This document shows, piece by piece, positions 1-20,031 of a stretch of 20,812 bases of DNA. The DNA is from a virus. Made by a program: the position numbers and the translations under genes. The notes below the pieces were generated by a model. It searched no databases. It was given only the letters and a program-made list of their open reading frames with translations, and was not told where the DNA came from. Numbering within the stretch: position 1 is the stretch's first letter; each line of letters starts with the position of its first letter. The DNA is taken from the IMG/VR virus record IMGVR_UViG_3300022072_000174, positions 1-20,812 of that record. The stretch is one strand, 5' to 3'.

Positions 1-3000
1 GCTCCTCTAGAAGTTTCCTCTTTAGAAAGATTCTTAGTAGAGTCTAATATTTTACCAGCAGGTACATCTGTTATTTCAGATAAAACGTCAGTTGCTAGGC
101 CACCAATTTTCTTGTAGCTTAGTTTCTTAGGATCGATGTCTTTAAGCTTCTCTTCTACCATCTTAGCAGCTTTGTCGTACTGCTCTTTAGACATTATCTT
201 AGTGGCTTTAGTTAATCTAGTTTCAGATCTAGTTTGAGCGTTATCTAAATCGATTTGATCTTCAATGCTCATTGATTCATCGGCAACTTCTTGAACAGAA
301 CCTACTTCACCAGCAGCGACATCTAAACTTTTACCTTCTACACCAGCTTCTTTTTTATACCTGTTAACAACGTCGCCAATTCTATACTTTATAAGCTCGT
401 TTACAACAAAACCACCTAAGTCATCGTTTGTCTCAGGATTAAACCTCATTAAACTCTTTTCATACAGTTGAGCTTTAACATCTTCCATAAATATGTCCTT
501 AGGCTTACCATACACATTATCACCGACTACACCATACTTGTTTAGTTGACCGTTTATTAAACCATCTAACGTTGTACCAAAAACTAGTTTTTCATATACT
601 TTACCAATTACTTGGTTGTCGTATCTGCTTTTACTAGTTCCTTCAGGTACTAAGGCTTTTATCTCGTTACCAAGATCTTTGTTGGACTTAGATAGCTTTG
701 TATCAGTCTTAGAAGTAGTTGTCACGCCTTCAGTAACTAAACTACCTTTAACTCCCTCGGAAGCTTTTATTTGTGCTTTTGTTAGCTTTCCTTTTGATAC
801 ACTTTTATTGTAATCTTTAACAAAATTGTATACGTCTTTACCATCATTAAACTTAACGCTGACACCTACAGATTGCAATGCTCTACGGATAACATCACCT
901 ATTTTAGTAAAAACATTTTCGTTGAACTTGATATCTCCAGTGGCTAAAGCATCGGAGAATAAAGTTATAACTTCTTCAGCTTTTACATTATTTGGGTCTT
1001 GCTTGTATTGATCTAATCTTTTAGCAAAGTTACTGTCTTTTACTTGATCTGCATCTATTTTGTTTAAGTAGCTTTTTAAAGAGTTACCTAAAGAAACCTG
1101 TGTGGTAGAACTATCTTTTACTGTTTGAAAAAGTAACGCATGTAGAAATTCGTGAGCAGCAACGTTCACAGCTTGTTCTTTTGACGCTATTTCTTTGTTT
1201 ATTACTATAGTTTGCTCGCCTGTTTCTTTGTTTTGATATATAAAACCTTGTTGTCCAGAAGCTTTTTTATCTATGTTTAAGTTATTTTCTTTTATAAAAC
1301 TTTCTATAGCTTTCGCGTTATCTAAAGACTTAACACTTACTCCCTTAATGTCACCAGCTAATTTTTCTATAGACTTTGTTGTTTTTTCAAGCGTATTATC
1401 TGCAGCCACTTTCTGCAGCTCGGTATTAATCTTTTTTATTTCTTCTTTTTGCTTTGTAACTAACTCAGGGTCTTTACCTTCTATGTCTTTTTCTAGTTGC
1501 TTTTTCTTAATTATAAGATCTATAGCCTTGCTTTTAGAATCACTACTAAAATCTTTAGGTATAGTTAAACCCACGTTTCGAACCTCTAGAATAACATTTC
1601 TTTTTTCTAGTAAATCTTTTTTAACATCAGCTCTGGTTTCTTTCTTAGCTTGATTTTCTATTTCTTTTATCTTGAAGTTAAACATAGCTTCAGAGCTATT
1701 AGAGTTTAATTTCCCTGCTATAATTTTGCTAAAAGCTTTTGCTTCAGAAACAGTTTGATTTCCTATATTACCACCTAGTCCAGTTGCAAAAGAAGATATA
1801 AAACCAGTGGCACCGGCGTCAAAAAGTTGCTTAGCATCTAAGTCTCCTCCAGAAGCAGCTGCTGTTATTATTTCCTGACCTGTCTCTGTTATAGCTTCCA
1901 TACTAGAGTTTTGACCGTTAGCAACGATCTTGTTTGTTGCTTTTTTCAAGAATTCTTTATAACCACTTCTTAACAAGGATTTATTTAGCCCTGTTGTAAA
2001 AGGTTTTAACGTTTTCCCAGCACCAAATCGTTCCATTTGACCAGCAACAAATCCTCCAGCGACACTTTTAGCCTCTAAAGAATCCATAAACTTTTTATCT
2101 TTAAATATTTCTTTTTTCATATCTAAAGTAACTCTTTCTTCTTCAGACAAGTTAAATCTTTTTCTAGCCTCTACATCAATTCCTTGAGTGTATATTTCAC
2201 CACCCATTTGCAATGCACCAGAAGCACCAAGCGTAAGTACAGCTAAAGCCATTTGAGGAAGCTGTTCAGCTGCTAAATATATAGAATTAGCTACAATATC
2301 GTCACCCTTAAATATTTTATCTAACTCACCTTTATCGTAGTTAGAAAGTACAAATTGCTCTTCTTGGATATCAGCAAAAGCTTTTAACGCTTTTTCATCT
2401 TGTTCCTTCTCGTATTGGTTAAATATAAGTTTAAAATTACCCCAAGTTATAGGGTCAGACGTTGGTGGTCTGTAAAGTTCTTGGCCCGAATCTACCGCGT
2501 ATCCTTTAGCGGCAAAAGCCTCTATGTCTTGACTGTCTCTAGTGTATTTAGGAATAAATTTCATAGACCCCTTACCGTCTCCCTTGTCTTCTACAAAGTA
2601 ACCTTCAGTGCTGTCAGTCCAGCCAAATTTCTTAGCTTTCTCTTCGTTTTTTTCAAAATGAACAACCTTGTCTATAACTTGCTTGTAACTAGCGTTATTA
2701 GCCCACTCTTTAGTGCTTTCGTTTATACCTCTAAGACCATTAATCGCTTTTACCATAGAGCCAACAACAATAGGCGCTCCCCAGCCAATTTTTTTTGCTG
2801 TTTGACCCATCCCGTATAGTGTAGGCATGTCTTTTGACTGCACGAAACTTCTTAAAGGATCAGCAGTTTTATCATCTACAGATTCCTCGAAAGCCGCTGT
2901 TAAAGCTTTGAAATCAATATTATTTGATATTTTACTGTTCATTAACTCATTATAAAAAGAATTAACATCTTTATTGAAAGAGTTAAGATTTTCTTGAGTT

Positions 3001-3695
3001 ATGCTGCTCGGGTCATTTAGCTTGTACTTGACCATAGCTTCTTGCACATAGGTGTCAACAGCTGGTTTTATATCTTTATTTATATTAGGTATGATTTTAT
3101 TCTGTATGGTACTATTGCTAGAAGTGAAATCTAAAAGCGCATCTTTTCTAAATTTTTCAATAGCTTTTTTATCATCAAAATTAATGGTTCCTAATTCTGT
3201 TTTAGGAAGTTGAACTGACCTGTTATTTAATATAGACTTTGTTTCATCTTGAATCCCTTGCTTATATTTAGCTGTTTTAAGATCTAGTTTAGCGCCCGGT
3301 GAAATACTATCAGCAGCGTCTAGAAAGCTATCATACTCTTCAGGTGTTATATCTTCTTGAGGCTCAACACCTTGCTTTGATAAAAAGTTTTTAAACTTAT
3401 CACTTGATGATGCCAATAAACCAGCTTCCGATTCTAAATCCGTATCTACTGCTTGATTTACCGATGTTGCAACCGCAGTTTCCTTTACAACATCTTCTGT
3501 CTTTACTGGTTCAACTGACCAAGCGCTTTTAAAAGTGTTTGAGTCTGTTTCTGCAAACAAATCATTTTCTTTACCTAGCTCATATAGTTGGTTTCTAGCG
3601 TCATCATCTGCATCAGAAAACATCTCTATAGTAGTAGCTGATGTTATCAAGCCTTGCTCTAAGTATAATTTGTATAGTTGATCTATCTTATCCAT
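1..3695 (-). CDS. Giant virion/ejected 'large polyvalent protein' with HEFLH metallopeptidase motif (partial, C-terminus missing)
   Basis: Reading the minus strand from ATG at 3695 gives 1231 codons with no stop before the window edge, so the true C-terminus lies outside. The start has an A-rich leader and follows the upstream gene by 12 bases. The N-terminal ~450 residues are hydrophilic and probably helical. Around residues 475-500 (near 2215-2280) lies a hydrophobic segment including MALAVLTLGASGAL. Around 595-645 a second Ala/Gly-rich stretch follows the motif EAITETGQEI. Lys/Glu-rich, coiled-coil-like sequence follows. Residues 848-852 are HEFLH, the HExxH zinc site, and EEVITLFSDAL at about 907-917 could supply a glutamate third ligand. 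Near the window edge comes the motif SIEDQIDLDNAQ. Such mosaics at the end of phage structural modules are usually internal virion proteins delivered into the host. That role is inferred; the open frame and motif are seen directly. Confidence 0.8.
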   Translation of the reverse strand, partial: MDKIDQLYKLYLEQGLITSATTIEMFSDADDDARNQLYELGKENDLFAETDSNTFKSAWSVEPVKTEDVVKETAVATSVNQAVDTDLESEAGLLASSSDKFKNFLSKQGVEPQEDITPEEYDSFLDAADSISPGAKLDLKTAKYKQGIQDETKSILNNRSVQLPKTELGTINFDDKKAIEKFRKDALLDFTSSNSTIQNKIIPNINKDIKPAVDTYVQEAMVKYKLNDPSSITQENLNSFNKDVNSFYNELMNSKISNNIDFKALTAAFEESVDDKTADPLRSFVQSKDMPTLYGMGQTAKKIGWGAPIVVGSMVKAINGLRGINESTKEWANNASYKQVIDKVVHFEKNEEKAKKFGWTDSTEGYFVEDKGDGKGSMKFIPKYTRDSQDIEAFAAKGYAVDSGQELYRPPTSDPITWGNFKLIFNQYEKEQDEKALKAFADIQEEQFVLSNYDKGELDKIFKGDDIVANSIYLAAEQLPQMALAVLTLGASGALQMGGEIYTQGIDVEARKRFNLSEEERVTLDMKKEIFKDKKFMDSLEAKSVAGGFVAGQMERFGAGKTLKPFTTGLNKSLLRSGYKEFLKKATNKIVANGQNSSMEAITETGQEIITAAASGGDLDAKQLFDAGATGFISSFATGLGGNIGNQTVSEAKAFSKIIAGKLNSNSSEAMFNFKIKEIENQAKKETRADVKKDLLEKRNVILEVRNVGLTIPKDFSSDSKSKAIDLIIKKKQLEKDIEGKDPELVTKQKEEIKKINTELQKVAADNTLEKTTKSIEKLAGDIKGVSVKSLDNAKAIESFIKENNLNIDKKASGQQGFIYQNKETGEQTIVINKEIASKEQAVNVAAHEFLHALLFQTVKDSSTTQVSLGNSLKSYLNKIDADQVKDSNFAKRLDQYKQDPNNVKAEEVITLFSDALATGDIKFNENVFTKIGDVIRRALQSVGVSVKFNDGKDVYNFVKDYNKSVSKGKLTKAQIKASEGVKGSLVTEGVTTTSKTDTKLSKSNKDLGNEIKALVPEGTSKSRYDNQVIGKVYEKLVFGTTLDGLINGQLNKYGVVGDNVYGKPKDIFMEDVKAQLYEKSLMRFNPETNDDLGGFVVNELIKYRIGDVVNRYKKEAGVEGKSLDVAAGEVGSVQEVADESMSIEDQIDLDNAQTRSETRLTKATKIMSKEQYDKAAKMVEEKLKDIDPKKLSYKKIGGLATDVLSEITDVPAGKILDSTKNLSKEETSRG
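1140..1154 (-). other. HEFLH (HExxH) zinc-binding motif inside the giant protein
   Basis: The minus-strand codons CAC GAA TTT CTA CAT encode residues 848-852, in the context VAAHEFLHALLF. The small hydrophobic residues before the first His and the short aliphatic residues after the second fit a zincin active-site helix. A Glu pair at residues 907-908 (972-977), followed by VITLFSDAL, is a plausible third ligand of gluzincin type. Activity is an inference. Confidence 0.65.
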
Positions 3696-3707: not shown

Positions 3708-5273
3708 TTATTTAAAAATTTGATCTCCTTTATTATTTTGTTTTGACTTAAACTCCTCGTAGGTGCCAACATCTTCTAGCTTACCACCAGAACCTGATTT
3801 CTTTTTAGCTGCTTGGTAGTCTCTGTAAAGCTTTAATTCTTTTTCAAACTTTCTTCTTTCTGGTTTTTGTTTATCGCTTGGATACTTTATTTTAGCAAAT
3901 TGTCTTATACCAGTGTCATTGCCTAAGTCTAAAGTATGTACCTCGGTGGATTGTTTAAGGTCTCCAGTAGCTTCGTCTTTCACTGCAGGTCCTTTAGCTG
4001 TTCTTAGCTCTATTTTACCATCACCTGTAACTTCTGCGCTTCTTATTTCACCGCTACCGATTCCTTTAATTGTTAAACCTTTGAAGAATCCAGAAGGGTT
4101 ATTATATATATCAACAACATCAGTTTCTACTTCCTGAGTTACTAGTTGAGATTCTTCTTGCTTAGCTTTAATGTCTTCATAATATTTACGTTCAGTAATA
4201 GACATAGTCTTCGGATTCACTGGTCTCGATTTCTCTTCAGTTGGATTAGCGTAAGTGTCTAACCAATACTCTTTATACTCTTCTTCTATTAAAGAATACA
4301 TTTCAGGTAAATTGTTTAAATTTACAGATCCTTGAAAACCTAAAGTATTATTAGCCATCGATATAAGATCGTTATTGTTCATAGAGCTAACGTTAGCCGC
4401 TATCTGTGCAGCAGCTGCTTTACCAACTTTTTCACGGTTTAAAGACCTAGAGTATGTTATTAAACCAGTTTCTTCATCTGTGTTTATTTCCATTGGGCCA
4501 TAAGCATCGTCACTTGGAACCGTTTTCTTAGTCAATGGGTCTACGCTGTATAGAAAATTATTTTTCATAGCTTCAAACTCAGTTGCTTGATTAGGAACTC
4601 TTTGAACTATACCTCCATTCTCCTCAGCCATTAACTCCAATTGCGCTACACTGTATCTTCTAGACTCACCTCCATTAGGTTTTATAACTACAAAAACCTC
4701 TGGTCTACCGGTTTTTTCGTTTTCTACAATGTCTAATGTTCTAGTTCCAGCTAATTTATCTGTCCACACTTGAGTGTTTTCTAAGTTGTTCCCAGGTGCA
4801 TAAAGATCAACTCCATCTGGTAAGCCAGGTCTTTTTAATGCTTCTTTAAGCCCAACGGTAGCCATCGTAAACTTTTCTAAAACCCCTTGCACAACACTAG
4901 GAAGAGCTTTGATATCTCTTTGCTTGGTTTTGTAAGAGAACACCTCATCGGCGCTTAACCCGCCGTCTTCAATTTGTGTTGTATAATCAGAGTACTGTCC
5001 AATGTAAGGGTTTAAAACATCCATATTGATGCTTTTGTTTCCTCTAACAACCTTGTCTCCTTCTCCTTGAACATTATCCTCTTCTAGCTGCGCTTTTTTT
5101 AATCTTTCAGATCTTTCGTTGGCTAGCTTTTGAGCTTTCTTCGTTTCATCATCTCTATCTTCTTTATAGCTTTTAGCAACTCTTTGGAAAGTACCTGATA
5201 TGGTATTCTGAAGATTAGCCATGTGTTGTGCTGACTGCGTGTCTACTACTTGTGTTGGGTTTCTATAACTCAT
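3708..5273 (-). CDS. Hydrophilic virion-module protein, function unknown (521 aa)
   Basis: I do not recognise a named family. The protein begins MSYRNPTQVVDTQSAQH, followed by a charged, probably coiled-coil segment at about residues 25-70 that is rich in Lys, Glu, Asp and Arg. The middle is mixed alpha/beta with no catalytic signature. The C-terminus is strongly basic and ends in KQNNKGDQIFK. There is no signal peptide or membrane segment. It lies between the Ala/Gln-rich internal protein (17-base gap) and the giant polyvalent protein (12-base gap), a position usually held in short-tailed phages by proteins packaged inside the capsid and ejected with the DNA. An internal virion or cargo role is therefore inferred from position only. 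The leader is A-rich (TTAAATAAAACATAAAA before ATG) with no Shine-Dalgarno; the stop is TAA. Confidence 0.75.
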   Translation of the reverse strand: MSYRNPTQVVDTQSAQHMANLQNTISGTFQRVAKSYKEDRDDETKKAQKLANERSERLKKAQLEEDNVQGEGDKVVRGNKSINMDVLNPYIGQYSDYTTQIEDGGLSADEVFSYKTKQRDIKALPSVVQGVLEKFTMATVGLKEALKRPGLPDGVDLYAPGNNLENTQVWTDKLAGTRTLDIVENEKTGRPEVFVVIKPNGGESRRYSVAQLELMAEENGGIVQRVPNQATEFEAMKNNFLYSVDPLTKKTVPSDDAYGPMEINTDEETGLITYSRSLNREKVGKAAAAQIAANVSSMNNNDLISMANNTLGFQGSVNLNNLPEMYSLIEEEYKEYWLDTYANPTEEKSRPVNPKTMSITERKYYEDIKAKQEESQLVTQEVETDVVDIYNNPSGFFKGLTIKGIGSGEIRSAEVTGDGKIELRTAKGPAVKDEATGDLKQSTEVHTLDLGNDTGIRQFAKIKYPSDKQKPERRKFEKELKLYRDYQAAKKKSGSGGKLEDVGTYEEFKSKQNNKGDQIFK

Positions 5274-5290: not shown

Positions 5291-6031
5291 TTAAGCTGTA
5301 GGATCGTAAGGAACGTATTTTCCTACTTTGTCAGCAATAGTAGGTGGAGAAGATGAACCAAAAGCACCTCCTGAATACATGCTACCAACAGTGCTTGTAA
5401 CGCCTCCAATAACTCCTGTTATAGCTCCAGTTCTATCTGAAGCTGCTTGAGATTCCCTAGCTTCAGCACCTGATATCTGAGCGGATAGTCTATCCATCTG
5501 CACCGCATCTCTATTTTCTTGCTCTCGGTACATAAACTCTTTGCCAGAAGCTTCTAGGCCTTGCATTCTTTGCTTTTCAGCCATTTGTAGTTGCTGAGAT
5601 CGCTGCTCACCTTGAGCTTTTAATTGCTCGTTATTAGCTTCTTGTTTTTCTATACTAGCTGAAACACCTTTCTTAGACTGTAAAGCTGCTTGAGCTAAAG
5701 CCGTTGCTCCTCCAGCTCCAGCACCAGTTGATCTAATGGCATCTAGAGTATTAGCTAGTGATATATCAGCTTCTTCTGCTTGCATTTCTGCTGCTTGAGT
5801 AGCAACAGCTAAGTTTTCAAATGGGTTTTGTACCATCGAAGAAAGATCTGTGGCACCTGCAAAAGGATTTATAATTTCTTGTCTATTATCTTCTAAGTAT
5901 TCTAGTTTTCTAGTGGCAACTCTTTTAGCGTGCGCTGCTTGTTGCTTTCTCTTGTTAGCTGCCGAAGCTCCGAAGATACCAGAAACTATACTTAATCCGC
6001 CAGATATTAAACCGGCTGTTACCATTGACAT
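5291..6031 (-). CDS. Ala/Gln-rich internal virion (DNA-ejection) protein
   Basis: This 246-residue protein has a Gly/Ala/Ser hydrophobic N-terminal segment (about residues 4-25, GLISGGLSIVSGIFGASAA). A Lys/Arg-rich stretch follows, then NPFAGATDLSSMVQNPFENL (residues 55-74). A long Ala/Gln/Glu helical region spans about 75-198, with ATALAQAALQSKKGVSASIE near 109-128. A second Gly-rich hydrophobic segment (GAITGVIGGVTSTVGSMYSG) lies near 202-221. Hydrophobic ends around a helical coiled coil are typical of short-tailed phage ejection proteins that enter the host envelope, such as P22 gp7-type proteins. I also remember this pattern from uncultured marine phages. It starts three bases after the cupin-like gene, so the two are probably co-translated. 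Ejection function is inferred; the composition is seen. Confidence 0.7.
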   Translation of the reverse strand: MSMVTAGLISGGLSIVSGIFGASAANKRKQQAAHAKRVATRKLEYLEDNRQEIINPFAGATDLSSMVQNPFENLAVATQAAEMQAEEADISLANTLDAIRSTGAGAGGATALAQAALQSKKGVSASIEKQEANNEQLKAQGEQRSQQLQMAEKQRMQGLEASGKEFMYREQENRDAVQMDRLSAQISGAEARESQAASDRTGAITGVIGGVTSTVGSMYSGGAFGSSSPPTIADKVGKYVPYDPTA

Positions 6032-6034
6032 AAG

Positions 6035-6478
6035 CTATTCTTTTAATTGTTTGTATTGTGTGTATGTTTCGCAAGTTAGTATTCTTTCTAACTCATCTAT
6101 ATTTGTTATGTTATCTGGATTTGGATGAACATTAACAAACACCGAATCCTCTAAAGCAATTATAACTCTCTTTGCCCCAGAAACAGCATTGACATATGTA
6201 GGAGCTGAGTAAGTTACAACTCCATCTTCGTTTGCTATTTTTAATTTTCCCTTCATTAGAAACCACGTATGACTTCTATTGTGTATTTTACCTATAACGA
6301 TGCCACCTTCAAGCATAGACATTTCTCTAATATAAACTCCGTCAGAAAATGAATGAGTTAATGGAAAAGAATCTGAATTACCTTTTATTACTAAAGGGTT
6401 ATCACTGTCTAGCATTTGTCTTTCTAGAGATGTAACTGTTTCCCTAAAACTATGTACACTTAATGAGGTTTCTTTCAT
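6035..6478 (-). CDS. Small cupin-like protein in the tail cluster
   Basis: The 147-residue product has a cupin-like pattern: GGIVIGKIHNRSHTWFLMKG at about residues 58-77, with His66 and His70 ahead of a conserved-looking KG turn. A second strand set includes ALEDSVFVNVHPNPDN, with His118. Three histidines at these spacings resemble the metal site of a cupin (motif 1 HxxxH here instead of HxH), but the fold is inferred from pattern alone. There is no signal peptide. The ATG directly abuts the TAA of the preceding tail gene (no gap), and the next gene begins three bases after its TAG, so it belongs to the tail transcription unit. It could be a small structural component, a sugar- or metal-binding accessory or an enzyme acting on a virion protein. 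I cannot decide between these. Confidence 0.65.
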   Translation of the reverse strand: MKETSLSVHSFRETVTSLERQMLDSDNPLVIKGNSDSFPLTHSFSDGVYIREMSMLEGGIVIGKIHNRSHTWFLMKGKLKIANEDGVVTYSAPTYVNAVSGAKRVIIALEDSVFVNVHPNPDNITNIDELERILTCETYTQYKQLKE

Positions 6479-7912
6479 TTAATAAGATGATTCTGAATAA
6501 TCAGAAGATACTGCAAATAATTCTTTAGCTCCTTCTGGATTTGTACCACTTGTTATTGCTCCTTCGGCGTCAATAATATAATCTGTAGATACTGTTACTG
6601 TAGCTAAAAAGCCTTTTATACCTGACATACTATTGCCCCATAAAACTTCTCCTGTTCTAGCAGAAGTACTATTAACTAAGTTAGCAACGTATTTATTTTC
6701 TTTTCTATCAAAACCTGCTCTATAGCTTATGTTATTCTCTGTATATAAACCACCATCGTAACTATAAACTAAAGTAGATGTATCTGTCATAAAACCATTT
6801 ACAACATCATATCCAGTTTCGTCAGAAATAAAGCTACTTACTTGCCATCCATTGCTTCCTTCGTAGTTAACTGTCTTAAATACTTTAGACATACTTACTC
6901 TAGGATTAAATACAAACTGAACAGAAGTATTGTTGTTTTTACCGTAAAAATTACCCCTATTAACAGAAGGATCATAATGTTTCCATAATACCCCATTGTT
7001 TAAACTGTAAAAATTACTTTTTAAACTAAGTACACTATCAGGTTTATAGCTAAAAAAGCTAGTCCACCCTCTAACGCCTTCATCGAAGGATAACGTATTG
7101 TAATCAGACGTGGAACTATCAAAAGCTGCTTGAGCAGACAAAACGTATTGTTTGTTGTGTATGTCCCATCCACCTATTAAAACCCCTGGATTTGCCCCGC
7201 TGTCAATGTTTCTAAACTCATCTCTAAAATAATCGTACATGCCATAATTAGATATTTCAGTTAGACCGTCCATAGATAATCTAAGAACCGCGTTCCTGTC
7301 TTTATCTGTAAAGTATTTTCTATAACCATAAGTAGCAAAGCTACCAGGATCTCTACTTATACCAAAGTTTCCACTGTAAGGCTGTATCGTACCTATAGTT
7401 GTATTTACGTTAGTAATACTTCCTCCTCCTTCAGCTGTGTATATAGCGTCTTTATCAATTAGTGCTCTAGAAACTTTAGACTCTTGAAAGACAATAAGAT
7501 TAGTGTCTTCGGCATAAAGTTTTTGTATACTACCGTTTGCTGGATCAGCTGACTTAGTTATAGATTCAGCTACTGAGAAAACGTTTGTATCGTTTACACC
7601 TGTTCTACTATTAAATATACCAGAGTATATTATTGAATTAACTCTATTAACCGCGCTAGCTTCTTCTTCTACTAAATATGCTCTAACACCTAAGTCCACT
7701 ATTGTGTTGTTATATCCACCTCTTACCCTAGCTTCTTCAATAACCCAATTAGAGGTTGGAGTAGCTGAAGGAAATACGGGAAAACCACCAATATCTGCTG
7801 GTATACCCATGGAACCATTCCAAGACGGTGCATCATTAACTAAGGCCTCGTTGTCGCTAGTCTTCTTAAGTAAGAAAGAGTTAAAATATTTTACTTCTAT
7901 TATGGCTCCCAT
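6479..7912 (-). CDS. Tail protein of the nozzle / tail-stabilisation type (477 aa)
   Basis: The protein begins MGAIIEVKYFNSFLLKK. Conserved-looking blocks follow: NWVIEEARVRGGYNN, GVRAYLVEEEA, IIYSGIFNSRTGVNDTNVFS, GSIQKLYAEDTNLIVFQESK, RALIDKDAIYTAEGGG, ATYGYRKYFTDKDRNAVLRL and GLTEISNYGMYDYFRDEF. Later come GGWDIHNKQYVLS and RGWTSFFSYKPDS. It is beta-rich with many Tyr/Trp/Asp turns, compatible with a propeller-like tail nozzle. Its length is near that of P22 gp10 (about 470 residues), but homology to gp10 is not established. I recall these blocks from tail proteins of crAss-like and uncultured marine phages. It follows the 1363-residue tail protein by 30 bases; the two probably build one tail assembly. 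No catalytic motif is visible. The leader is A-rich without Shine-Dalgarno; the stop is TAA. Confidence 0.7.
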   Translation of the reverse strand: MGAIIEVKYFNSFLLKKTSDNEALVNDAPSWNGSMGIPADIGGFPVFPSATPTSNWVIEEARVRGGYNNTIVDLGVRAYLVEEEASAVNRVNSIIYSGIFNSRTGVNDTNVFSVAESITKSADPANGSIQKLYAEDTNLIVFQESKVSRALIDKDAIYTAEGGGSITNVNTTIGTIQPYSGNFGISRDPGSFATYGYRKYFTDKDRNAVLRLSMDGLTEISNYGMYDYFRDEFRNIDSGANPGVLIGGWDIHNKQYVLSAQAAFDSSTSDYNTLSFDEGVRGWTSFFSYKPDSVLSLKSNFYSLNNGVLWKHYDPSVNRGNFYGKNNNTSVQFVFNPRVSMSKVFKTVNYEGSNGWQVSSFISDETGYDVVNGFMTDTSTLVYSYDGGLYTENNISYRAGFDRKENKYVANLVNSTSARTGEVLWGNSMSGIKGFLATVTVSTDYIIDAEGAITSGTNPEGAKELFAVSSDYSESSY

Positions 7913-17625: not shown

Positions 17626-20031
17626 CTAGCTAGGTCCAAACTGCTCTAGTCCAAACCCATCTAAATTATCGTTTCCAGCAGACTCAAAGTTTTTTGGCAA
17701 TAGATCATTCTGTCTTTGATCTATAAGCTCTGATTGCTGGGTTCCTTGTATTTTCACTCTCTTGTCTTTACGGTCTTCTATTTCTTTTTCCTTAGAAGTT
17801 TCCGATTGTATTCTAGCTTGAGCCAATTGCATTTGATAACCAAACTCTTCAGCCATTAACTCTCTTTTGATTTGAGCTTCTGTCTGCATTCTTTGTATCT
17901 CAAATTGAGATTTAGCTTGCTCTATACTAACTTTTTCTTGAGTTAAAGCTTGTTGCTTTTGCACTTCAAACATAGCTGCTTTCTCTGCAGACCCAGCGTT
18001 AGCTTGTGCCTGAGCTTGAATATTTTGCTGTTGAGCCGCTTGCTCTCTTGCTATTTTTTGAGTTTGTCTTAGTTTTAAGAACTGGTTAGCTAGCTTAGTG
18101 TTTTTGATTTCTCGTATATCGATAGCGTCTGATAACGCAATAGCGCCAGTTTGTAAAGCCATTTGAACGTTTTGCTCTAATAAAGCTTTGACTTCTTCTT
18201 CAGGTTCTAATTCTAAGAATATTCCAAAATCATGTAATTGAAGATTCATTAACTCTTGTAGAGTTTTAGTGTTGAAAGTACTTATAGCTCCACTTAGAGA
18301 GTTTTCTGTTAATGGGTTCTGTATTAAATCAGCAGCTTTTAAGCTTATGTTCTCACACATTCTCAATGTAACGTATAATAAAGATTCCATTAAATGCTTA
18401 GTGGCTGTGTTAGAAGCGTTTGCTGCTAGCTTTTGTAGACCAACTAAAGCGTCTTTGTCTGGAGCACTTCCATCTCTAGCTTCGTTTAATCCTGTCACAT
18501 CACGGATCATTTGTAAGTAATATTGGTAAGTACCAATTAAACTTTGTATTTTAGCTTGACCTGATGATGATGATAGTTCCTGTATAGGTACTTTACCGGC
18601 ATTCATACCACCTTCTTGAGTTAGTGACCTACCAACTACAGAACCAGTCTGAAAATACATATTTAATGCTTCTGCTGGGTTATAATTAGTTCCGTTACCT
18701 AAATCAACTTCAGCTAAACCATCCATATCCAAGAATACTCCATCAGGAACTATTCTAGACATAACTTGTTGCAACTTAAGGTGAGTAAGCTGTATCATGT
18801 CAGCAAATCCAGTTATTCTACTAACTAAAGACTCTATACGTCCTTTATACATTTTCGGAGCTGTAATACAGTAGTTCATTTCTACCTTTGTAGTATCAGC
18901 GGTTGGCCTAGTCATATTCTCGGCCATCTTCCACTCTAGCATAACATTGTTACCTAACACTTTTGCTCCAGTGTATAAAACCTCTATAGTTCTATATACT
19001 CTATCAAAATTGTCGTTAGGTGGTGGGTTGAATTCGTCTGTTTTTTCTAATGCTTTTTCTAGACCTTGGTCAGTTTTCTTTATCTTAAAAACCTGGTTCA
19101 TATAAGTCTTATACTCAAAGTACATAACCTGAACAGTGTTTTCATCGTAATTACCCCAACCAGTTACGAATTGAGAATTACCTGGCATTTTCTGTATCTT
19201 CTCTAATTCTTCTTCAGGAAGATCTGGAAACTGCTTCTTAAGCTCTGGTATTGTTATAGCTTTTACTTCTCCAACATAATATATATCTTCAAAGTTAGGA
19301 TCCTCAGTATACGAATATACCATATAAGCTGGATCAACGTAGTCTATTTTTATACCTTCTGTTCTATCAAACCTTGTTTTACATGCTGCTATTCCTAGTA
19401 CAGTTAAATCGTTTGATAGTCTTTTTTTAGTTTGATCGTATCTATTCTTCGCTAGGGTAGTGTTAATTACTTCTTCTTCTGCGACCTCAACGTTTTGTTT
19501 ATAGGTCATTTGCATATGAAGGTCTAGCTCGTCTCTGTTTTCAGGTAAGTTGTTAATGTCATTAGTCATAGATAGATCAGCGCCTAACTTATTCTGTATA
19601 TCTATCAACAATTCTTTAGTGTTCATATCCCTCTGAATAGCTGCAGCGTAATCTGTTCTACTTTTCACAGAAAATGGATCTTGAGCAACTGCTTTAATGT
19701 CATAAGATTTATTACTCATTCCATTTACAACAATGTCTACAAACTTAGAAATAACTGGAACAGGTGTCCAGTCTAAATTAAGGTAAGATAAATCACCGTT
19801 AATAGATAATTCATTTTTATATTTTTGAACACTTTGCTCTCCACGAGCGTATAATCTCAATTGATGAAAATTACTATAACTTTGAGCATATCTGTTACCA
19901 GACCTGCCTTCTTGGAACCATTCTCCTTCAATCGCTCTAGCGACTTGCTCACCGTACTCTAGGCTAGCTTTTACTTCGTCGCTAACCACTTGGTTAGGAA
20001 ATGAACTATTAGTGTTAGTCTGTATCTTCAT
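17626..20031 (-). CDS. Portal protein, crAss-like (801 aa)
   Basis: The gene begins three bases after the terminase stop, the typical order. The N-terminal part has FHQLRLYARGEQSVQKYKNE and LDWTPVPVISKFVDIVVNGM (86-105). The central part has NLPENRDELDLHMQMTYKQN (161-180), NDLTVLGIAACKTRFDRTEG (207-226) and YVDPAYMVYSYTEDPNFEDI (231-250), then YYVGEVK. Further on come IRDVTGLNEARDGSAPDKDA (509-528), LVGLQKLAANASNTATKH and CENISLKAADL. From about 650 to 765 a Gln/Ala-rich coiled coil (AAQQQNIQAQAQANAG) could form a portal barrel. The C-terminus ends LDGFGLEQFGPS. I recall several of these blocks from crAss-like phage portals. About 800 residues is large for a portal, in line with short-tailed phages having a barrel extension. 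It forms the dodecameric DNA channel and docks terminase. The stop is TAG. Confidence 0.85.
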   Translation of the reverse strand: MKIQTNTNSSFPNQVVSDEVKASLEYGEQVARAIEGEWFQEGRSGNRYAQSYSNFHQLRLYARGEQSVQKYKNELSINGDLSYLNLDWTPVPVISKFVDIVVNGMSNKSYDIKAVAQDPFSVKSRTDYAAAIQRDMNTKELLIDIQNKLGADLSMTNDINNLPENRDELDLHMQMTYKQNVEVAEEEVINTTLAKNRYDQTKKRLSNDLTVLGIAACKTRFDRTEGIKIDYVDPAYMVYSYTEDPNFEDIYYVGEVKAITIPELKKQFPDLPEEELEKIQKMPGNSQFVTGWGNYDENTVQVMYFEYKTYMNQVFKIKKTDQGLEKALEKTDEFNPPPNDNFDRVYRTIEVLYTGAKVLGNNVMLEWKMAENMTRPTADTTKVEMNYCITAPKMYKGRIESLVSRITGFADMIQLTHLKLQQVMSRIVPDGVFLDMDGLAEVDLGNGTNYNPAEALNMYFQTGSVVGRSLTQEGGMNAGKVPIQELSSSSGQAKIQSLIGTYQYYLQMIRDVTGLNEARDGSAPDKDALVGLQKLAANASNTATKHLMESLLYVTLRMCENISLKAADLIQNPLTENSLSGAISTFNTKTLQELMNLQLHDFGIFLELEPEEEVKALLEQNVQMALQTGAIALSDAIDIREIKNTKLANQFLKLRQTQKIAREQAAQQQNIQAQAQANAGSAEKAAMFEVQKQQALTQEKVSIEQAKSQFEIQRMQTEAQIKRELMAEEFGYQMQLAQARIQSETSKEKEIEDRKDKRVKIQGTQQSELIDQRQNDLLPKNFESAGNDNLDGFGLEQFGPS

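Follow-up and report, generated by a model that had tools for sequence, protein, structure and literature searches.

A giant cargo-type protein in a crAss-type virion block joins a zincin-like metallopeptidase domain to a sigma-70 domain-2-like module

Main finding

A giant protein gene at the edge of a 20,812-base IMG/VR virus fragment (the window, by which we mean this whole stretch of DNA) encodes two conserved modules in a single polypeptide, a zincin-like metallopeptidase domain and, ~220 residues past the zincin motif, a module that resembles domain 2 of sigma-70 factors in profile and predicted fold. Giant injected phage proteins with a zincin domain are already a known kind, whilst the sigma-like partner is unexpected and new relative to the literature searched. 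The explanation that we favour for the two together, by a little over even confidence, is an injected polyvalent protein whose sigma-like module would work on host RNA polymerase and whose own zincin would cut the giant itself.

The giant gene and its neighbourhood

The giant cargo-type (polyvalent) protein gene occupies 3..3695 on the minus strand, with its ATG at 3693-3695 and 1231 codons without a stop up to the left contig edge, where the frame is open and beyond which the C-terminus lies. The initial annotation had described, with no strand named, a single frame of this length with HEFLH in VAAHEFLHALLF at residues 845-856, and both were confirmed. Complete genes at this place encode 2100-3350 aa, the closest complete relative (L085) being 2415 aa long. 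Residues 1-44 (3564..3695, minus strand) form a variable N-terminal module, near relatives L002 and L003 carry a different one, and the match to L002 begins at residue 45. The N-termini of the L002 and L085 giants and of the MW202828 giant (L120 741-12320; 3859 aa, with two HEFGH at residues 1615 and 2500) have in common a repeated LFSKDGYEG-type motif in proteins that are otherwise different, which looks like an exchangeable tag; the N-terminus of the window giant differs from this type.

Whole-protein searches recovered little: the window protein gave zero matches in PHROGs, sub-threshold M78 and SprT rows only in Pfam, and no tblastn matches against phages, and the L002 protein gave weak or short tblastn matches only. 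A search of genome contigs found only two MAG contigs (Flavobacteriaceae and Aliivibrio), which are probably phage DNA in bins.

Gene order in the window, on the minus strand, is terminase end, portal, structural genes, muzzle, small genes and giant, with the portal, terminase and structural families assigned through PHROGs. The portal protein (17626..20031, minus strand; phrog_6547, E 1.5e-143) marks the virion block, and the muzzle protein (6479..7912, minus strand), whose C-terminal crass domain scores above cut-off (PF25729 crAss_MUZ_C, E 3.3e-12), anchors the order. Between the muzzle and a 521-aa gene lies a 246-aa gene (5291..6031, minus strand) with a weak match to the virion structural family phrog_1917 (E 0.02), the 521-aa gene itself (3708..5273, minus strand) has no family match and, going by order, would sit where crassviruses encode cargo protein C2. 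Also lying between the cargo-type genes and the muzzle is a 147-aa gene (6035-6478) with matches in the short tail fiber and tail fiber adhesin families (E 2e-25); in L117 an unrelated gene takes this place.

The order is that of crAss001, where muzzle gp44 is followed by C1 gp45, C2 gp46 and the giant gp47, and together with the crass domain of the muzzle it makes up the crAss-like features of the window. We use crAss-type as a label for this virion block and not as taxonomy, since the elemo and phi38:1 records list no Crassvirales; by capsid protein, the best named relatives are Manatee Spring phage, Maribacter phage Panino, the elemo Flavobacterium phages and Cellulophaga phages. In crAss001, gp45, gp46, gp47, gp49 and gp50 were detected in virions by mass spectrometry (PMC10172136), and the record of phi14:2 annotates g065-g069 with ‘experimental MS/MS proteomics’. 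By analogy with these two phages, the capsid most probably carries the window giant, which would enter the host before the DNA does. Its placement among crassvirus cargo genes, proposed earlier from the sequence, is upheld by the PF25729 muzzle in the window and by gp47, a virion protein at the same place in crAss001. The likeness to crAss001 gp45, gp46 and gp47 (PMC10172136) extends to the large size of the giant and to its position directly after the muzzle and two cargo-type genes.

A conserved zincin-like domain

Residues 784-986 (738..1346, minus strand) form the zincin-like metallopeptidase domain, assigned from a profile match (E 5.3e-93), an AlphaFold model, fold matches and Pfam M78 in the L103 homologue. 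Within VAAHEFLHALLF, HEFLH spans residues 848-852 (1140..1154, minus strand), and among the members of the profile family H848, E849 and H852 are unchanged in 72 of 72 relatives; the motif is conserved, and its loss in relatives would have counted against the earlier reading. The glutamate proposed there as third ligand, E907 or E908, falls in AEEVITLFSDAL (residues 906-917, window 945-980), ~60 residues past H848. E908 (972..974, minus strand) shows no change in any of the 73 aligned stretches whereas E907 is kept in 63 of them, which makes E908 the better candidate, and from this conservation and its position in the model E908 is likely to be the third metal ligand beside H848 and H852. An alignment of 25 sequences, in which whole-domain identity to the window zincin drops to 35%, leaves only 20 of 246 positions invariant, and these include H848, E849, H852 and E908.

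Every relative with a complete domain has HExxH. The zincin-domain search returned 36 loci, 35 of which carry HExxH in the matching frame at identities from 93% to 38%; at the 36th (L119) the match is confined to query residues 1-51. A second set of relatives was gathered by muzzle synteny, with the motif unused, and consists of 50 non-redundant giants behind a muzzle gene. Exactly one HExxH is present in 45 of these, whilst over 200 rounds of shuffling the same giants a mean of 0.07 of 50 (maximum 1) had one HExxH, and shuffling the window protein 20,000 times produced HExxH in 9 cases. These shuffle counts, with the conservation of the residues, refute the reading of HEFLH as a chance motif, to which we give next to no credence. 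The window’s zincin profile fits 36 of the 45 HExxH-bearing giants, and the other 9 have different zincin-like motifs (e.g. HEVGH, HEINH) at a similar place. Five syntenic genes are without HExxH, four of them cut off or half of a split pair; L030 (2416 aa, open at its end) has none over the part seen, and phi38:1 gp101 (1691 aa), at the same position, has none either, so the zincin domain is not universal.

Zincin-like folds without activity exist, and the domain could in principle be a structural or folding module and not an active peptidase. We consider this improbable, as the few residues that never change include the catalytic H, E and H and the likely third ligand, and HExxH is so widely retained in the syntenic giants.

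The AlphaFold model, built from the 25 sequences (pLDDT 72, pTM 0.78), has three strands, a helix with HExxH (model residues 81-95) and a second C-terminal helix with E908 (model 138-155), which is a zincin topology as predicted. The top VIA-align rows are lethal-factor-type folds (Z 7.1), Zmp1 (5.2), SPRTN (5.0) and ArdC (4.3), middling Z values that, for a predicted model, reflect shared folds and not shared functions. Foldseek alone gave nothing below E 0.6, and VIA-align was needed; against viral models (BFVD), the Foldseek list is of giant proteins from phages, and several of these carry the name polyvalent or structural (best E 3e-4). The zincin profile matched nothing among PDB sequences at E <= 10. 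Peptidase_M78 (ImmA/IrrE; cut-off 22 bits) is exceeded over the HExxH part by the relatives L103 (31.2) and L097 (22.2) but not by the window’s own domain (16.8), which also scores below cut-off for SprT-like (17.9 against 25.6). We place this zincin in the neighbourhood of M78 and SprT, and read it from its fold and residues (H848, E849, H852, E908) as a gluzincin-type metallopeptidase, of which we infer the activity.

A sigma-70 domain-2-like module

Downstream of the zincin is a second conserved block, with a family-wide (F/Y)(D/N)P motif. In the window it corresponds to residues 1025-1141 (273..623, minus strand), which by predicted fold and profile is a sigma-70 domain-2-like module with a putative function; the fold match covers 1025-1129, the profile core 1069-1141, and the motif is RFNPETNDDLGGF. 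When a profile of 36 relatives was compared with PDB sequences, 10 of 10 matches at E <= 10 were sigma factors (best 0.0034). For the AlphaFold model (pLDDT 73, pTM 0.45), VIA-align gave sigma-factor structures in 50 of the 50 rows listed, phage sigma T4 gp55 among them, with a highest Z of 8.7 over model residues 1-105, and Foldseek gave a mixed, weak list. Pfam Sigma70_r2 has no row for the window’s own sequence; a segment of the 2882-aa L111 protein reached E 1.3e-4 and 22.1 bits against a cut-off of 24, and the same stretch 24.3 bits, over the cut-off, in the genome search. As the Pfam evidence is borderline, the sigma assignment rests on the PDB and fold evidence, with Sigma70_r2 matches in relatives beside it.

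The module is like sigma-70 region 2 and ECF sigma factors in its fold, its FDP-type loop and a sequence match that spans regions 2.1-2.2. It is unlike them in lying inside a giant virion-type protein and in that no region 4 was found (Sigma70_r4 had no row in the giants scanned whole), and also in the promoter-reading half of region 2: the alignment ends at the start of region 2.3, no sequence similarity to sigma was seen in regions 2.3-2.4, and the -10-reading residues appear not to be kept. Small helical folds match widely, and with these residues unkept and the module missing from L085 the likeness may be one of helical fold only, the partner being DNA, the portal or another virion protein instead of RNA polymerase. 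We hold this reading to be rather doubtful, because the ten PDB profile matches and the fold list are all sigma factors. Docking of the module on RNA polymerase is put forward tentatively, at a little less than an even chance.

The sigma-like module is present in 33 of the 39 syntenic giants that extend far enough, in every case downstream of HExxH and at a distance of 196-357 residues. L085, the nearest complete relative, keeps the zincin and has no recognisable sigma-like module, whilst L006 has a module 78% identical to that of the window and a zincin that the profile does not recognise; the latter shows that the two modules are exchanged separately. The zincin slot before the sigma-like module is kept even though the zincin types differ (L006, L026, L033, L039 and L044).

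In the open-access literature, which misses most subscription journals, no injected virion protein was found described as having a sigma domain, and papers on the epsilon and zeta groups of crAss-like phages say nothing of a peptidase or of sigma.

Transcription setting and proposed role

The initial annotation had linked giants at this place to virion RNA polymerase, a link that the relatives of the window do not support. None of the ORFs of at least 400 aa in four relative records (G002 and G006 at full or almost full length, G005 starting at 2.9 kb, G004 as far as 53.7 kb) is a DFDxD giant of the phi14:2 kind. The strings DFDGD, DFDWD and DFDLD do occur in a few relatives (L107, L112, L113 and L111), but they stand in unrelated contexts and are not conserved, and they were rejected as signs of a virion RNA polymerase within the giant. 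Sigma70_r2 is above cut-off in 7 of 10 records, either in a separate ORF of ~255 aa or in the giant itself (G004). With no DFDxD giant and with sigma-like ORFs in the relatives, the crAss-type phages of the window’s group seem to work through host RNA polymerase. A separate sigma-factor-like gene of ~255 aa besides the giant occurs in G002, G003, G005, G006, G007 and G009 (behind L098, L105, L116, L101, L110 and L064).

The mechanism that we propose has three steps. Judging from relatives, the giant would be packed in the capsid and ejected into the host ahead of the DNA. The sigma-like module would then dock on host RNA polymerase and aid the start of phage transcription, standing in for the virion RNA polymerase that was not found in the four records examined. 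The zincin would cut the giant itself, in the virion or after ejection, and so release the modules. Self-cleavage is a guess, which we judge about evenly balanced.

The zincin may instead be an effector that cuts a host protein after injection, such as a repressor, as for ImmA/IrrE (M78), or a defence protein, with the sigma-like module as a separate activity. M78 is the best-scoring Pfam family in the relatives, Iyer et al. count targeting of the host among the possible roles of domains like this (PMC5512222), and the diversity of zincin types could track host targets; the single copy per giant and the fixed slot before the sigma-like module, on the other hand, favour a role tied to the giant. 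A constant slot filled by differing zincin types is more in keeping with a service role than with a single, unchanging target in the host, and we regard cleavage of a host protein as possible though somewhat doubtful. The more specific version of the self-cleaving giant, a virion-delivered sigma factor in which the sigma-like module, freed by zincin self-cleavage, captures host RNA polymerase for the earliest transcription of the phage, seems unlikely when taken as a whole. If true, an injected sigma-like module would be how transcription begins in crAss-type phages that have no virion RNA polymerase. With one zincin per giant at a fixed place before the sigma-like module, in a large aquatic group that has cultured relatives (elemo Flavobacterium phages), both the target of the zincin and the way transcription starts in crAss-type phages that seem to lack a virion RNA polymerase are testable.

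Comparison with known systems

Zincin-like MPTase domains are known in giant phage polyvalent proteins, including N4 virion RNA polymerase and P1 DdrB, and Iyer et al. (2017) suggested, for zincins of this kind in general, that they process their own protein or target the host (PMC5512222). The window giant is like these proteins (PMC5512222) in being a giant multidomain protein in a late virion gene block, in having HExxH in one C-terminal helix and the glutamate in the next, and in joining unrelated domains in one polypeptide (zincin and sigma-2-like, in at least 1231 aa beside muzzle and portal genes). It differs in that crAss-like phages and sigma modules are unmentioned in that account (PMC5512222).

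Neither the zincin profile nor the C-terminal profile reaches crAss001 gp47, phi14:2 gp66-68, phi38:1 gp101 or elemo gp18. Like the window giant, crAss001 gp47 has one HExxH (HEAFH at 2157), but the motif is near the C-terminus and there is no profile similarity of the zincin or of the C-terminal domain. This protein has been called RNA-polymerase-associated, with no mention of a protease (PMC10172136). In gp47 (L125 10120-17145), a virion protein confirmed by mass spectrometry, HEAFH is followed downstream by LEENMAEGF and a glutamate helix, and the region is likely to be a zincin. Flavobacterium phage elemo gp18 (NC_055854), from a cultured phage with the same gene order, is a 3694-aa ‘structural protein’ with HEIFH, a downstream EE and similar surroundings; unlike the window giant, it is too divergent for the zincin profile, which has no match over the motif.

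Complete relatives, among them L085, L089, L101 and L105, end in a strongly basic stretch: their last 25 residues have a mean of 44% K+R vs. 14% for the whole protein, and such C-termini could bind packaged DNA. The C-termini of L115 and L116 have a cysteine/histidine-rich stretch of the KKRGGRCGNKTSNKNGKCYAHQ type instead of a basic tail. At L025 6297-13413 two frames seem to make up the giant between them, and only the first (1357 aa) contains HEIYH.
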